Below, piece by piece: positions 18,232 through 25,782 of a stretch of DNA of 64,000 nt (position 1 is the stretch's first letter; every line of letters begins with the position of its first letter). The position numbers were made by a program, and so were the translations under genes. Source of the DNA: Allocoleopsis franciscana PCC 7113 (GTDB lineage: Bacteria > Cyanobacteriota > Cyanobacteriia > Cyanobacteriales > Coleofasciculaceae); NCBI RefSeq assembly GCF_000317515.1, contig NC_019738.1, positions 6,412,001 through 6,476,000 on the forward strand. The letters are read 5' to 3'. The notes below the pieces were generated by a model. It saw only the letters and a list, made by a program, of their open reading frames with translations, made no database searches and had not been told where the DNA came from.

Positions 18232-18573
18232 CTAGAGGGACAACAATATGTCTCAATCCGAACGGAATTTCTCTCAATCCCTTTCGGGCAAAGAGCCTTG
18301 GCTGGCTGTTCATTGAGCTATTCTTAATTGACGGCGATTCAGTGCTGTTTTCCAACTCAAAATTCAAAATTGATTCAGCTTAAAAGGCTGTTGAATTTTG
18401 ATTGAATAGAGTTTGGCGGCGACAGAATTTCTACAAATAGATCTGTTGTTTTAGCCCCAACTCTTGTTTGGCGTTGTTGGAAAAGAAAAATTGGAGATGA
18501 AAACGTTTAGTGTAGAAGTAGAGTAGTTCAAGCCTAATAACTGAAGAGAAGCCATCCATTAATTTAATTGGAT
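18232..18573. other. Convergent intergenic stretch
   Basis: 342 bp between the convergent ends of crtH and the 211-aa gene. AT-rich; no T-run hairpin stands out and no gene is seen. Confidence 0.4.
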
Positions 18574-19209
18574 TCAAAGTAATGGCTGTTCTGGTTCGTC
18601 GCTGGAATTTTGCAGTTGTAACAAAGCCGAATGGGCGACGGTTAAACTGAAGCGTGCCTGTTCCATGGGGGATAACTCTGTCCAATCTATAGGTTGAGCT
18701 ACACTAGGCTGAGTTTCAGGGGTTGACTCTGATTTCCCTCGCATGGCGTAAGCCAATGGACGAGCAAAAACCAATAAATCATCCTCTGCCCAGTTGGGTA
18801 ACAAGGGCTTAACACAGAGTACAAGCTGCTCTGCTAATGATAAGTTGGTCGAGAAAATTTGTTGTGCTTTGTGAGCGATCGCTTCTAACCATGCCTCTGG
18901 CATAAAAGCTGCAAACCGTTCGGACAAAGATTGACGCAAATTTTCCTCAACCACCCATTCAGGTGATGACCAGCATTGGTGCAACTGGTTGAATAAAGCT
19001 TGTGACGCTTGAGTAATGTCTTCTACCTCTTGCCATTGCTCAAGTAAGAACCCTCGTTCCAGTTCAGCGAAATAGGCTTCTGCCTCAGGTTCAGCTGGAT
19101 TCCAGGGATAAAAATCTTCCTCTGCCTGCAAGAGTGCCTCTAGTAGTTGTCCTTGTACGCTGTTCAAAGCATCCTCACAATTTTTGTATTGCATGGGTTG
19201 ACCTGACAT
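18574..19209 (-). CDS. Uncharacterised acidic helical protein, last gene of the PP2C/CHAT cluster
   Basis: 211 aa, acidic, Trp- and Glu-rich, predicted all-helical, with no signal peptide or membrane segment. I recognise no domain. A strong ribosome site (AGGAGGG, five bases before ATG) supports the start. Composition: repeated E-W/Q-W pairs (FLLEQWQEVEDITQASQALF, SPEWVVEENLRQSL), a Pro/Glu linker near 160-175, and an acidic tail (SSDEPEQPLL). It follows the CHAT-FHA gene and the 41-aa peptide on the same strand and is plausibly co-transcribed, so it is a candidate partner or substrate of the CHAT protease. That role is inference from position only. Confidence 0.6.
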   Translation of the reverse strand: MSGQPMQYKNCEDALNSVQGQLLEALLQAEEDFYPWNPAEPEAEAYFAELERGFLLEQWQEVEDITQASQALFNQLHQCWSSPEWVVEENLRQSLSERFAAFMPEAWLEAIAHKAQQIFSTNLSLAEQLVLCVKPLLPNWAEDDLLVFARPLAYAMRGKSESTPETQPSVAQPIDWTELSPMEQARFSLTVAHSALLQLQNSSDEPEQPLL

Positions 19210-19310
19210 AATGACCCTCCTGTCTGGGTAGGTAGATGAATCCTGGCATTGGATAGCTACATCAGCGCTCTAGAGAGTTCCGTAACATCTCATAAAATAC
19301 AAGATAGCGC

Positions 19311-19436
19311 TTACATTGTTTGCTGCGAAACAAACAATCTGTCGCTGCAATACCCTTCGCACTCTTCACCATCAGATGAAGTCGATGGCGTTACAGAGCC
19401 AGACTGACTCATATCTAAACGGCTGTCTAGTGCCAT
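19311..19436 (-). CDS. Putative 41-aa peptide downstream of the CHAT-FHA gene
   Basis: From ATG 19436 the frame gives a 41-aa acidic Ser-rich peptide, MALDSRLDMSQSGSVTPSTS followed by SDGEECEGYCSDRLFVSQQTM, with two Cys four apart. A longer in-frame version starts at TTG 19496 and overlaps the CHAT stop. Upstream of the ATG is AGGAGATA-GCT-TATCTCCT (19455-19437), a perfect 8-bp hairpin whose 5-prime arm is the Shine-Dalgarno, so translation could be occluded unless ribosomes arriving from the CHAT gene open it. I recognise no family. It may be a leader, a small substrate or chance; only position and ribosome site support it. Confidence 0.35.
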   Translation of the reverse strand: MALDSRLDMSQSGSVTPSTSSDGEECEGYCSDRLFVSQQTM

Positions 19437-19470
19437 AGGAGATAAGCTATCTCCTGACTGAAGCCCAGCT

Positions 19471-21165
19471 TTATTCCAAAGGATCAGACGCTTCAATCAC
19501 AAATTCCAGGGTTTGACCCTGACTACTGCCAAACTTTAACTGAATACCAGATTGCAATGGCACTTCCTGATGGTGGATTCTTTGCCAACCTCGAACGCCA
19601 TCACGTCCCCCTGAAACCTGATTCACCCCTGGGCTAACCTGATCAGGAGCTAAAATGAATGTGCCGTAGCGAGAGAAATCACGTAAAAAGTAAGTGGGAC
19701 GAGCTTCACTCCCATGAAAATCATCGCGGCAGATAATTTCGGCATGATTTTGGCTGACCCACTGTTCCTGAATGAATAAATCATTCTCTTGGCGGCGTCC
19801 GACTCGCATCAATCCACCCCGAATTCGCCAAACCTGAGCAGTTGAGCCGAGAGAGCGTAAATAAGCCACAGGCGCTGGAGTTCCCACCCAACTGGGTGTC
19901 ATCGGGGGGAGTTCGGTGATGCCTTCTTCAATGGGTTTAATTAATTCACCCTCAAATTGAGGATGCATATAAAGCACCGGTAAACTCCAGGCGGGTTGAT
20001 TGAACTTGTAAATCGTCAACAATTGCTGCCTTGCCACCGCTACAGCCTGGTCAATGGGCATCCGAGTGGCGAGGGCTTGGGCCAGAGTTTGAATAAATGT
20101 TAAGGCTTCTTGGTCAGCGATCGAATCACGCATTCCTAAAACCGCCGGAACGCCGTGATGGATGAGGACTTCCGCTAAGCTACTGCGTGGAATTGTTTGG
20201 GAACCTACTTGGTCGGGTTGGGCACCCCAACAGGCATTGAAGACCGCCAATGTGACCTCGGTGCGAACCAAAACTTGAGCCAGTTCTGTACCGTTGATCA
20301 CAGCATCTGAGCGCAAAAATAGCAAACCCCCATCCGGCCCCGGTTCACCATGACCGGCATAAAACAAAATATTAAAGGCACCCTTTTCCAATGCATCGAT
20401 CAATTCTGCGGGTGTGGGCTGTAACAACGTTTCCACATTACAAGCAACGGGGACAACAAATTTTTCGCTGCTGGGATTGGGTTGTCCGCAGGCTTTGAGA
20501 ACATTCACCAAAGCAGCCGCTTCTTGTTCAAGCTGCAAACCCGTCGTTGAGCGGCTGAGTCTTTGCACATCCTGCCCCAGAACCAGCAAAATATTTAAGG
20601 CTTGGTTGTTGCGGGTAAAGGGCTTGAGCAAGTCAACATCGCTGGTTGTGCGGCTAAATAACAATTGTTGAGACAGAGAAATGGCCTGTTTCCCAGCCAT
20701 CGGTTGCATGATTTCCCACGGTAGGGGGATGAAATCTGGGTCACGAATTTCCAATCGTAAACGCAGGGGTTTGTTTTGCCCAATGGCAATGCCTTGACTT
20801 TGAGCTAGTGTGTTGCGAATCGGCCCTTCAAACAGCCACGCCCACAAGTCAATCCCTAAACGCTGCATCAGACGACTACTGTAGCTGGTGGTTTGTCCAG
20901 CCGCGCCGATGTCGCTATCGGGGGGCAGCGTTCGGGCGGACTGACTAGCATGATGAATCAGAGGGACGTGGGGCAGACCCCGTAAAGAAAACATCTCTTG
21001 CCACGCCAGCCAAGTCTGAGTCATGACTGGAGACCATGTTGTCTGATGAAGCACATAGCCACCAGGATAGGGCGCGTTGAGTACCCAGATGGCAAAGTTT
21101 TCATCTCCAGCCGTTGACAGACGAGCGATCGCTAAACTGAGCAGCGGATTTTCGTTTCCAGACAT
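19471..21165 (-). CDS. CHAT-domain protease fused to an FHA domain
   Basis: 564 aa, soluble. Residues about 130-400 form a CHAT (caspase HetF-associated with TPRs) peptidase with both catalytic residues visible: His272 in NILFYAGHGEPGPDGG and Cys312 in LAVFNACWGAQ; WEIMQP and the ending AVLGMRDSI are also family-typical. Residues about 440-560 form a forkhead-associated domain (LMRVGRRQENDLFI ... WVSQNHAEI ... FLRDFSRYGTFI), a phosphothreonine reader. Residues 1-120 are unassigned. CHAT proteases act in cyanobacterial differentiation (HetF) and in defence (type III-E CRISPR TPR-CHAT, gasdermin systems). Here no CRISPR, TPR or gasdermin gene is adjacent; the neighbour is a PP2C phosphatase 153 bp upstream. 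A phospho-controlled protease is the natural reading (inference). Confidence 0.85.
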   Translation of the reverse strand: MSGNENPLLSLAIARLSTAGDENFAIWVLNAPYPGGYVLHQTTWSPVMTQTWLAWQEMFSLRGLPHVPLIHHASQSARTLPPDSDIGAAGQTTSYSSRLMQRLGIDLWAWLFEGPIRNTLAQSQGIAIGQNKPLRLRLEIRDPDFIPLPWEIMQPMAGKQAISLSQQLLFSRTTSDVDLLKPFTRNNQALNILLVLGQDVQRLSRSTTGLQLEQEAAALVNVLKACGQPNPSSEKFVVPVACNVETLLQPTPAELIDALEKGAFNILFYAGHGEPGPDGGLLFLRSDAVINGTELAQVLVRTEVTLAVFNACWGAQPDQVGSQTIPRSSLAEVLIHHGVPAVLGMRDSIADQEALTFIQTLAQALATRMPIDQAVAVARQQLLTIYKFNQPAWSLPVLYMHPQFEGELIKPIEEGITELPPMTPSWVGTPAPVAYLRSLGSTAQVWRIRGGLMRVGRRQENDLFIQEQWVSQNHAEIICRDDFHGSEARPTYFLRDFSRYGTFILAPDQVSPGVNQVSGGRDGVRGWQRIHHQEVPLQSGIQLKFGSSQGQTLEFVIEASDPLE

Positions 21166-21317
21166 TAAAAGGCCACACGAACAGCGGCTGTATAGGTTTT
21201 TCTTTCAGTCTACCGAGTTCTTTGGCTCTGTTTACCCTAATAGTATTTTTCGGGGATGAAGAGTTGAAAGTTGAACTCATAAAATTGCCTCCCTGTCAAC
21301 TTTCGACTTGCGCGGTT

Positions 21318-23759
21318 TTAGGGAGATGGAATCGCTCTGGGTACTGGGGTCGAGGTGGGGGGAGAGGCAGAGGGAGACACACATTCACTGGTTAAGGTGA
21401 AATTTGGGTTAATCTGGGGCAGAACCTCCGCTTCTTTCAACCAACCTCGGTCTCCCGACTTGACAAGAGGATAAGGCAAGGTCGTTGGCTGAGGGTTGAC
21501 GGCTCCAGGAGTTTGACCTGCTGGGCTTTGAGGAGGTTCAGCCGCAGGCTGAGCTGGCTTTAGAGGTTGAGATTCAGCGTTACGGGTGCCCGGTGAGCAA
21601 ACCCTCAACTCTACCCAGCTATTTTGTTGTGGATCGGGTGATTTGTTAATAATTTGCAAAATGCTACCTGTGGGGACAACACCAAAGGGGGTTTGGTTTT
21701 GGGGTGGCAAGCCGCGTCGCAGCAACAAGGGAACATTCTGCGGCTGGGAGTTCGTTGCGCTAGAATTCATGACTTGAATCACCGCTCCTGGCTCTAACGA
21801 TAAAATCTCTGCGGGTGAAGCCGTTGGATCGTCTGCACTGGTAGTGGCGGGCGATGGGTTAGTCGCAGTCGATGCGTCAGGGGGACTGGTATTAGACGCC
21901 ATTTGCTTCATTAGGGGGTCAACGGATTCACTCACGCCTGGAATTAAAAAGTAAGAGAGTACACTCCCCAGCCCCAGTAGGCAAATAATACCAAGCAACA
22001 GTCCCCAAGGACGCCGAGCTGTACCTTTGGTCGCCAGGGGTTGCGTTTTCATCTGGGAAGGAGCGCTTGTCGCCAGCAGGGTTCCTCCGACGGGTGAAGA
22101 GGCAGGAACCTTCATCTGTGACGCAGAAAGTTGTGCCGGGGGTGTCTCCTTTGAGGGATTCACTGTGCAGTAGAGCAAAGCAATGGTGGCATTATCATGT
22201 CCATTTTGGCTATTGGCAATCTCAATCAGTCGTGTTCCCGCCGTGGGCAAATCAATTCGACCGTCGAGAATGGGTAGAATTTCGGTTTGCCAGTATTGCT
22301 CCACTCGGTCATAGTCACTCAGTCCATCCGAACACAGCAGAAACACACAATCCTCATCCAAGACAAAGCGCTGTACCGTTGGATGCAGGGTGGCGGAGGG
22401 AGCCATGCCCAAGGCTTGAACCAGAGAGCCTGCCGTTGGTTGCTGTACAGCATTCCGATACAGTGCGTAGCCAAGTCGCACTTCTCTGGATGCCAAATCG
22501 TCATCCAAAGTCACTTGGTGGCAGTTATGGCGAGTTACCCAGTAGACTCGGCTATCCCCAACATGGGTGATGTACATTTCATGAGCAGAAGTGCGAGCCA
22601 TGACTAATGTTGTCCCCATCCGTTGCCGATCAGAGCGGCGTTCGCTGTCGTTTTGTTGGCTAATGATGTCATTAGCGGCACAGGTGGCTTGTTCTAATTC
22701 CAGCGTCAGGGTTGAGGGGTTCCAATTATCGGGGTCGTTAGGGAGTTGTTCAACTTGTTCCCGAAGTGTATCGATGGCTAAATTTGAGGCAACTTCACCG
22801 CCTTCATGCCCGCCAATGCCATCACAAACGATTGCCAAAGCACTGGCACCGTTGGCGGGTTTGATCAACTGCCCATTGGGCGGATAGCAGGCATCTTCGT
22901 TATGGGAACGACTGGGGCCGGAATCTGTGCGAGTGAAGATTTGATAGGTGCGAGTCTGCGATCGCCCACAATTTTTCAGCCCCTGATCGAGCAGCGCCAC
23001 GAGTTGCTCCGAGGTGCGAATCTGTCCATCCCGTAGTTGAGTACATAGCTGTTTTAAAAACTCTGCAATCGTCGGTGCTGCGCCTGCAATCCATTGTGAC
23101 CACAACTGACCTAACTGTTGCAGCGTCGGTGCTGACTTCGGATCAAGTTGCAACTCTAACAATCGGACGACAGACCCTTCTACCCGCAGCAGCGTTGGCG
23201 AGAGCAGCGTCGAAGCCACCCCTTCACTATTCAAAGGTTGCCAGAGCATGGCTAACTGCCAAAGCCAGTTTAACTGACGCATCGCGGGAGCCTTTTCCCA
23301 CACACTAGTTAGTTCGGGTAAGAGTTGCCCTTCAACTGGAGGTGCTGCCTTTTCCTTGCGACTGCTCTGTCCAGAGACATAGCTGTAGATAGGGGCATCT
23401 TCCAGGAGCCATATTTCTGAGCGAGTACGCCCTTCCAAGGGTATCAAACGCCCATAAAGTTGGGGAACATGTAAGCTATAGGGTGCCAGCCTCAAATAGG
23501 GTGTTAGGTTCCCAGGAATATCCAAGGGAGTCTCTGGAGGTCTTCCCGGTTGAGTGTCTAAAAGAACGCGTGCGTGTATTAGTAAATAGCGACCTGCGAT
23601 TGTATCTCCAGGTTGAAAACCCTCGATTCCCTGACCGATTGCCCACAAGTAACGTCTCAACAGCGGCGTGCGACATTGCTGGCAGAACTTATTACTCTGA
23701 GGGTTGGGAGCCTGACAGCGAATGTTAGAACAGTGGATCGTTGCCGCCGGATTTTCCAT
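21318..23759 (-). CDS. Zinc-ribbon / pseudokinase-like / PP2C phosphatase membrane protein
   Basis: 813 aa. Order: a zinc ribbon (C10, C15, C26, C29); residues about 45-265 resembling a degraded Ser/Thr kinase (GDTIAGRYLL start, helical C-lobe, but no VAIK, HRD or DFG); a complete PP2C phosphatase about 275-535 with metal-binding Asp residues D289 (SHNEDA), D313 (CDGIGGHEGGEVAS), D478 (CSDGLSDY) and D522 (GHDNAT); a transmembrane helix 585-607; then a Pro/Ser/Thr-rich outer part with SH3-like segments. PP2C enzymes remove phosphate from Ser/Thr; the topology puts the phosphatase in the cytoplasm and the tail outside. Together with the FHA-CHAT gene this suggests a phospho-signalling pair. No kinase gene lies nearby. 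ATG start. Confidence 0.85.
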   Translation of the reverse strand: MENPAATIHCSNIRCQAPNPQSNKFCQQCRTPLLRRYLWAIGQGIEGFQPGDTIAGRYLLIHARVLLDTQPGRPPETPLDIPGNLTPYLRLAPYSLHVPQLYGRLIPLEGRTRSEIWLLEDAPIYSYVSGQSSRKEKAAPPVEGQLLPELTSVWEKAPAMRQLNWLWQLAMLWQPLNSEGVASTLLSPTLLRVEGSVVRLLELQLDPKSAPTLQQLGQLWSQWIAGAAPTIAEFLKQLCTQLRDGQIRTSEQLVALLDQGLKNCGRSQTRTYQIFTRTDSGPSRSHNEDACYPPNGQLIKPANGASALAIVCDGIGGHEGGEVASNLAIDTLREQVEQLPNDPDNWNPSTLTLELEQATCAANDIISQQNDSERRSDRQRMGTTLVMARTSAHEMYITHVGDSRVYWVTRHNCHQVTLDDDLASREVRLGYALYRNAVQQPTAGSLVQALGMAPSATLHPTVQRFVLDEDCVFLLCSDGLSDYDRVEQYWQTEILPILDGRIDLPTAGTRLIEIANSQNGHDNATIALLYCTVNPSKETPPAQLSASQMKVPASSPVGGTLLATSAPSQMKTQPLATKGTARRPWGLLLGIICLLGLGSVLSYFLIPGVSESVDPLMKQMASNTSPPDASTATNPSPATTSADDPTASPAEILSLEPGAVIQVMNSSATNSQPQNVPLLLRRGLPPQNQTPFGVVPTGSILQIINKSPDPQQNSWVELRVCSPGTRNAESQPLKPAQPAAEPPQSPAGQTPGAVNPQPTTLPYPLVKSGDRGWLKEAEVLPQINPNFTLTSECVSPSASPPTSTPVPRAIPSP

Positions 23760-23956
23760 GAAAATTCTTCGCTACGTTCAGCCGATGATGATTTGGCTAC
23801 AAGCCTTACTTCTCAAAGCCGGAAGTATGCCTCCGCCTGTAGGAAGTGTCTTGTGCAAGCGTATTGTATTGATTACCGATTGTAGCGTCTGGCTCTAGCG
23901 TGAGTTTATAGGCTTGCGCTCGATTCTTCCCTAGGGCATACAATCTGGCATTGATG

Positions 23957-24187
23957 CTAATAATTGTCCAGGCTACCACTGTCCCTCATCAGGTGAGGCC
24001 AGATCAGCAAAAAAAATGTCCACCAAAGTAAAATTGGCAGGGCAACGAGGATGGTGACCCAAACCGTTTTTACCAAAGCCCAACTACTAGCGATGATCAT
24101 TGTTCCGGTCAGCAGAATTGACCAAGGCTGACACCACCAGGGTTTATAACTCCAAGGGTCTGAAGGCTTTTGCTTTTGTTTAGACAA
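23957..24187 (-). CDS. Small membrane protein (DUF6737-like)
   Basis: 76 aa, two transmembrane helices (about 23-43 and 44-66) after a hydrophilic start containing the motif WSYKPWWCQPWSILLTG. Similar small proteins occur in most cyanobacteria (I recall them as DUF6737, from memory). The frame starts at TTG; no ATG precedes the first helix. It is on the same strand as the PP2C gene, 197 bp upstream, and could be the first gene of that transcript, but the spacing is loose. Function unknown. Confidence 0.6.
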   Translation of the reverse strand: MSKQKQKPSDPWSYKPWWCQPWSILLTGTMIIASSWALVKTVWVTILVALPILLWWTFFLLIWPHLMRDSGSLDNY

Positions 24188-24424
24188 GATTGGACAACCC
24201 GTTGCCGTTTGACATAGTACAGCCGCTCATTCTAACAATGATAGCGGTTGAAGGTAAAGGCACTAGCAGCTAGGGGTTGACTTAGTTTTAGGAACTGTTG
24301 CTGAGGTTTGGAGATTAGATACAGTTTATTGCTTAATACTCTGGATGTTGTTTTGGGGTGTTACCGACTGAATCTTTGGGTTCACCCAATTTAATCCGTT
24401 AACTTTTTCCCATCACCCATTACC

Positions 24425-25440: not shown

Positions 25441-25782
25441 TTAACCCACCTGAGGCTCAACTTGCGGCAGCCCCATGCTGTAGTTGACGACACGACTTTC
25501 CAAGTTATAGCTGATTTCACCGCTCTGTAAAAGCGATCGCATCAAATGCTCCAAATCCGAACCAATGCGACGTAGGTTGTATTCGGTTAAATCTGCCCCA
25601 TCGTAAGATTCCACCAATTCATCAAATTTGCGATACACCTTTTGCAGAGCGTCTTCATTCCAATTTAATTCGTTGTCGGGGTCAACATCTAAGGTTAAAA
25701 CGTTTGGACTTTCGACCAGTTCATTACCATCAACTTCCGCCGTATAGATGCGAATGTGACGTGTTGTGGACTTCAGTAGCAT
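25441..25782 (-). CDS. ndhM: NAD(P)H-quinone oxidoreductase subunit M
   Basis: 113 aa, the normal length for cyanobacterial NdhM. It is a peripheral subunit of the photosynthetic NDH-1 complex, on the cytoplasmic arm, needed for respiratory and cyclic electron flow. The sequence carries the family pattern MLLKSTTRHIRIYTAEVDGNELV (in parts), VLTLDVDPDNELNWNEDALQKVYRKF, LTEYNLRRIGSDLEHLMRSLLQSGEISYNL and VVNYSMGLPQV. ATG with AGGAG (GGAGAGTC) just upstream. Convergent with the 116-aa gene. A second NDH candidate, the NdhP-like small protein, lies at 39.8 kb. Confidence 0.93.
   Translation of the reverse strand: MLLKSTTRHIRIYTAEVDGNELVESPNVLTLDVDPDNELNWNEDALQKVYRKFDELVESYDGADLTEYNLRRIGSDLEHLMRSLLQSGEISYNLESRVVNYSMGLPQVEPQVG

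Follow-up and report, generated by a model that had tools for sequence, protein, structure and literature searches.

The window analyzed here is a 64,000-nucleotide stretch of the genome of Allocoleopsis franciscana PCC 7113 (G000:C1:6412001-6476000, within an 8 Mb cyanobacterial genome). On its minus strand, three genes lie in a row: a PP2C phosphatase of 813 amino acids (21318..23759), a 564-amino-acid protein that joins a CHAT protease domain to an FHA domain (19471..21165; CHAT-FHA), and a 211-amino-acid acidic protein that we call U (18574..19209). U is the near-obligate companion of CHAT-FHA, and the two might form a second proteolytic switch of the type described for HetF and PatU. An earlier reading of the DNA without database searches (the sequence-only reading) had listed these three genes, and the open reading frames (ORFs) bear all of them out, with Pfam matches for PP2C and CHAT-FHA; inspection also shows the strong ribosome site (AGGAGG) that it assigned to U. 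The 41-amino-acid peptide that it placed between U and CHAT-FHA (19311..19436, minus strand) has a counterpart in none of 80 orthologous loci and is not treated as a gene here. What looks like a ribosome site for this ORF comes from a palindrome, AGGAGATAGCTTATCTCCT, at 19437-19455 (minus strand), which lies shortly 3' of the CHAT-FHA stop codon and is not followed by a T run.

The CHAT domain (20005..20862, residues 102-387) matches PF12770 with 68.9 bits (cut-off 24), and the FHA domain (19528..19806, residues 454-546) matches PF00498 with 36.3 bits (gathering score 20.7). The catalytic His272 (20350-20352) and Cys312 (20230-20232), which had been described as intact, are identical in 81 of 81 CHAT-FHA orthologs. 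Within its own genome, the nearest CHAT relative of CHAT-FHA is HetF (167 bits, 36% identity over 337 amino acids), and other CHAT proteins score about 60 bits or less. The sequence-only reading's mention of HetF pointed in the correct direction. CHAT-FHA is a paralog of HetF rather than HetF itself: it matches NF045509 (CellDiv_HetF) across residues 95-412 with 169 bits, far below the curated cut-off of 1200 bits, and the genome has a separate HetF-like gene (G000:C1:4150055-4152529, 915 bits). No TPR domain of Pfam matches CHAT-FHA, and its C terminus is the FHA domain, not the transmembrane and TPR regions of HetF. In the predicted structure (mean pLDDT 73), the top match is Csx29 of Craspase (E = 2e-9). 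Further structural matches are SAVED-CHAT and separase, and the FHA part matches the FHA domains of Mek1 and Dun1.

The FHA domain retains only some of the canonical phosphothreonine-binding residues. Ser471 is kept in 99% of the CHAT-FHA orthologs and the His is kept too. However, about 88% of them have Tyr, Phe, or Trp in place of the Asn of the “NGT” motif, and the Arg of the “GR” motif (Arg457), kept in 83%, is lost in about 17%. With these changes to Asn and Arg, it is uncertain whether this domain reads phosphothreonine.

The phosphatase was correctly recognized by the sequence-only reading (PP2C_2, 49.3 bits, cut-off 24). The zinc ribbon that it also described is found only below threshold, and its “pseudokinase-like” stretch has no kinase match in Pfam up to E = 0.1. 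The protein has one hydrophobic segment (approximately 21935-22010) and is putatively like PrpJ (all1731), a plasma-membrane PP2C of Anabaena for which a role in heterocyst maturation was reported (Jang et al. 2007, as cited in PMC6161253). Going by the order of the locus tags, all1731, all1730, and all1729 may correspond to PP2C, CHAT-FHA, and U. One of these, all1729, was once listed as a hypothetical gene of the filament core and was later removed from that list by its authors (PMC2821919).

Co-occurrence of CHAT-FHA and U

We searched 195 genomes of the cyanobacterial class for orthologs of these genes. CHAT-FHA is present in 92 genomes, nearly always in a single copy, and U is present in 93. 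Both are found in 91 genomes, the protease alone in one, U alone in two, and neither in 101. In 73 of the 91 genomes with both, U is on the same strand as CHAT-FHA and directly downstream of it; in the other 18 the two genes are unlinked (with contig breaks in some cases) and both are retained. PP2C is directly upstream of CHAT-FHA in 69 of 92 genomes. In a scan of 80 named loci, from hosts that include Moorena, Symploca, Microcoleus, Leptolyngbya, Oscillatoria, and Phormidesmis, U was found with CHAT-FHA in 68; in Laspinema (L111, L128, and L137), U is on the upstream side of the protease instead of downstream. The cluster is therefore not a chance adjacency, which is what the sequence-only reading would have concluded from random neighbors. 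Its statement that the usual partners of CHAT proteases are absent overlooks the 211-amino-acid gene, which is itself the dedicated partner.

The genomes with just one of the two genes are few. In the sole protease-only genome (G174), the contig ends at the expected position of U. One of the U-only genomes (G036) has a decayed remnant of CHAT-FHA with seven stop codons (G036:C16:56147-56350, L148), which lies exactly between an intact PP2C and an intact U. The other (G078) owes its status to a weak single-sequence match that we judged to be due to chance, as we did for a histidine kinase in G158.

PP2C is less tightly tied to this pair. PP2C relatives with a match at E = 1e-40 occur in 163 of the 195 genomes, including many without CHAT-FHA and U. 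Because unlinked pairs are kept and PP2C is widespread without the pair, we consider the protease and U to be the core and PP2C to be a frequent neighbor. The divergence of the proteins agrees: across 31 taxa (pairs of which are not independent), the correlation between the pairwise distances of U and those of CHAT-FHA is r = 0.80, which becomes 0.69 when PP2C is controlled for, and the other two partial correlations among the three proteins are 0.40 and 0.10.

These genes could be part of the core genome that is conserved in these cyanobacteria, linked by inheritance only and with no common function. Upstream of PP2C are genes for a DUF6737 membrane protein (23957-24187) and NdhM (25441-25782), both on the minus strand, and these are conserved neighbors at other loci as well, so some of the linkage at this locus is simply inherited. 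As a full account, inherited linkage is very unlikely, given that CHAT-FHA and U are retained when unlinked, that they stay adjacent in Laspinema even as their order flips, and that their divergence correlates beyond that of PP2C.

The frequent presence of PP2C also bears on the proposal, made in the sequence-only reading, that the FHA domain recognizes a phosphorylation mark that the phosphatase erases. In such a phospho-switch, the FHA domain would read phosphothreonine on U or on another protein and PP2C would gate proteolysis by removing it, which is compatible with CHAT-FHA cutting U. The clear FHA fold with its retained Ser and His is consistent with this, and so is the gene that lies next door in 24 of the 80 loci: it encodes a fusion of FHA to a PrsW intramembrane metalloprotease. 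(This gene is convergent with U and just 3' of it, for example at L090:8518-9825 on the minus strand, and adds another FHA-protease to the locus of CHAT-FHA and U.) However, the Asn and Arg changes in the FHA domain, the lack of any invariant Thr among the U orthologs, and the many PP2C relatives in genomes without the pair argue against it. The phosphorylation mark is unproven, and we regard the phospho-switch as distinctly unlikely.

The distribution of the pair also speaks to an anti-phage or regulated-death module, in which U would be a toxic effector activated by CHAT-FHA. Several defense systems use CHAT proteases, and Craspase and SAVED-CHAT were ranked first in our fold search. But CHAT-FHA and U are conserved in single copy across the class, unlike patchy mobile defense islands; U has no similarity to toxins; and neither U nor PatU was found on the plasmids and viral contigs that we searched. 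When the three proteins were scanned with PADLOC, no match was better than E = 0.0066, although a missing match does not exclude such a function, and none of its matches was to CRISPR components, for which no dedicated search was made. A defense role seems extremely unlikely.

U, its similarity to PatU, and its upstream element

U is a new protein family. The sequence-only reading did not recognize it, and indeed no family member matches Pfam or NCBIfam. A search of the literature, covering mostly papers outside of subscription journals, found none on either CHAT-FHA or U. The predicted structure of U is all-helical (mean pLDDT 80); Foldseek found no significant match to it in the PDB (best E = 0.4), and the best VIA-align hits were to unrelated chains with Z = 5.5, which is the level expected by chance for helical models. 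Several segments of U are conserved. The YPWNP motif (19096..19110, residues 34-38) is 93-99% conserved and falls where the model is poorly structured. A conserved ARPxAYxMR segment ends at the invariant Arg157, and right after it, between two conserved helices, is a poorly ordered loop with low confidence (18679..18738, residues 158-177). There is also a conserved LSxxEQxRxSL helix. We considered whether U might be CyDiv (all2320), but this was ruled out: CyDiv is predicted to contain a membrane segment, and it adjoins glnB (PMC4748335).

When we searched 146 genomes with a profile of U, the only match outside of the orthologs was a 332-amino-acid ORF in G246 (E = 1.4e-4). The ORF that overlaps it upstream is HetZ (NCBIfam, 656 bits, cut-off 550). 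Because patU is described as the gene downstream of hetZ (PMC7377430), we identified the 332-amino-acid ORF as PatU. Aligning the U profile to this protein with hhalign gave a score of 37.8 (E of about 7e-5, 27% identity over 93 residues). For a second PatU, from a hetZ-patU locus in G135, the score was 28.3 (E = 1.8e-3), as compared to 18.7 for the best of 100 shuffles and 23.0 for the best of 200 unrelated proteins. The G135 PatU was also the only match to the U profile among 1079 ORFs from 400 kb. Both PatU proteins have FPWE before their helical region, and the YPWNP of U is at the same relative place. U and PatU are probably homologous; the evidence from these alignments is good, not conclusive.

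Some differences from PatU are clear. U is shorter, it has its own promoter element, and it adjoins CHAT-FHA instead of hetZ; no HetZ relative is encoded within the window. A HetZ-related protein is encoded elsewhere in this genome (NF037964, 670 bits, cut-off 612; L201:454-1689, or approximately G000:C1:5188096-5189331), and no patU follows it. The C terminus of this protein weakly matches region 4 of extracytoplasmic function (ECF) sigma factors. A HetZ at L215:3517-4704 (minus strand) also has a sub-threshold match to sigma-70 region 4 (PF08281, E = 1.3e-4), which suggests possible contact of HetZ with -35 elements, for example DIF1.

Upstream of U is a promoter-like element, which in the window is TTACGGAAC-N15-TGTAGCTA (19254..19285, minus strand). 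Its consensus is TT[AG]CGGAA-N16-TGTAG; the spacing is constant, the interior varies, and the element is usually 70-180 bases before the start codon. By our reading, with small variants allowed, it is present at 66 of 69 loci in one set and at 19 of 19 genes in another, where both sets include the U gene of the window. The exact element has just 43 matches in the 195 genomes: 34 are directly upstream of U and only two are in genomes that we scored as lacking U. At zero mismatches, it is unique in its own genome. U genes that are not linked to CHAT-FHA still carry the element, and more diverged U genes have a degenerate form or none. In G174, the single match is elsewhere, before an unrelated gene.

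The layout of this element is similar to that of promoters for ECF sigma factors (GGAAC-N16-GTA). SigG was considered as a candidate reader of the element: the region upstream of sigG contains GGAAC as well, but its spacing and -10 differ from those of the U element. We rejected the J-Box of SigJ (GGGaAtacT), as its sequence differs. We also scanned for promoter motifs with k-mers; the reversed-sequence control was uninformative, so only the forward counts were used, as hints. Another comparison is with DIF1 promoters, which have TCCGGA at -35 and whose expression depends on HetZ (PMC7377430). The U element shares the CGGA core, as RCGGA at a -35-like place, and has an unusual -10-like block. 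Its consensus differs from DIF1, however (TTRCGGAA and TGTAG), and in exact form it occurs almost only at U.

A proposed proteolytic switch

In Anabaena sp. PCC 7120, HetF, PatU3, and HetZ act in cell division and heterocyst development: HetF can cleave PatU3 (PMC12288457), and PatU3 binds HetZ (PMC7377430). Counterparts of all three can be proposed here. The protease domains of HetF and CHAT-FHA are the closest paralogs in this genome, U shares the [YF]PW motif and has a C-terminal helical region like that of PatU, and a HetZ-related protein is encoded. Because CHAT-FHA is a paralog of HetF and U is probably a paralog of PatU, a second protease-substrate pair is the economical reading. We give about even chances to the locus being a second HetF/PatU-type switch in which CHAT-FHA cuts U.

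This switch would work as follows. CHAT-FHA would be a HetF-like protease of the caspase fold, with the FHA domain in place of the membrane/TPR part of HetF, and U, made from its own alternative-type promoter, would be its dedicated partner and most likely its substrate. When active, CHAT-FHA would cut U, with the flexible loop after Arg157 as the probable site, and would thereby release whatever U holds. By analogy to PatU and HetZ, this might be the HetZ-related DNA-binding protein that is encoded elsewhere in the genome, and one could hypothesize that the same protein reads the U promoter. The FHA domain would serve to localize the protease or to gate it, with the phosphorylation state set by the membrane PP2C.

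Several results weigh against this reading. The similarity of U to PatU is remote: the hhalign probability is 46-64% for the first PatU or for the two together and 15% for the second alone. Fisher's exact test for the association of CHAT-FHA with U across genomes gives p = 2e-52 but takes no account of phylogeny. In G036, U has outlasted the protease, which means that the two are not strictly interdependent. Finally, 18 further genomes with U were searched within about 5 kb of it, and nine of them have no CHAT-FHA there; it is on this point that the claim of pairing is weakest.

U might instead be an adaptor, a chaperone, or a securin-like inhibitor of CHAT-FHA that binds via YPWNP and is not a substrate. 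Any tight partner could account for the near-obligate pairing and the correlated divergence. The conserved YPWNP motif is short and lies where the model shows little structure, and one structural match of the protease is separase, whose inhibitor is securin. Yet PatU3, the probable relative of U, is cleaved by HetF, and the occurrence of U without an adjacent protease (in G036, and perhaps others) better fits an effector with a function of its own. We view a non-substrate role as rather unlikely.

Cleavage of U by CHAT-FHA would also have a parallel in Craspase (Cas7-11, Csx29, Csx30, and CASP-sigma), in which the CHAT protease cuts a flexible loop of the sigma-factor inhibitor Csx30 (PMC10028731). 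Here too, the partner of the CHAT protease contains a flexible loop. We saw no similarity between U and Csx30, and a sigma-like target for U is only hypothetical. A broader scheme is that cyanobacteria keep two parallel modules, HetF-PatU-HetZ and CHAT-FHA-U-HetZ-related, in which the HetZ-type proteins are sigma-like and read -35 elements of the CGGA type, including that of U. We think that this scheme is unlikely, but if it were true, then HetF and Craspase would share a logic, with a CHAT protease destroying the inhibitor of a sigma-like factor.

Few bacterial caspase-type proteases have a known developmental substrate, and HetF is one of them. CHAT-FHA, a second protease paralogous to HetF, has a dedicated partner and is found in many filamentous and related cyanobacteria. 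The pair offers a directly testable substrate for an uncharacterized enzyme, may link the PrpJ phosphatase and HetZ-related proteins to cell differentiation, and would be a natural comparison for the logic of CHAT protease, inhibitor, and sigma factor known from Craspase.

A few minor features of the locus remain. Rfam has no match to a known RNA element in 18400-24300. About 45 bases 5' of the start of CHAT-FHA is a -10-like block, TAGACT (approximately 21207-21213, minus strand), which is present in 30 of 81 orthologs. At another locus, a second strong CHAT-FHA-like ORF (L093:11938-13617, minus strand) lies on the same contig stretch and is possibly a duplicate.

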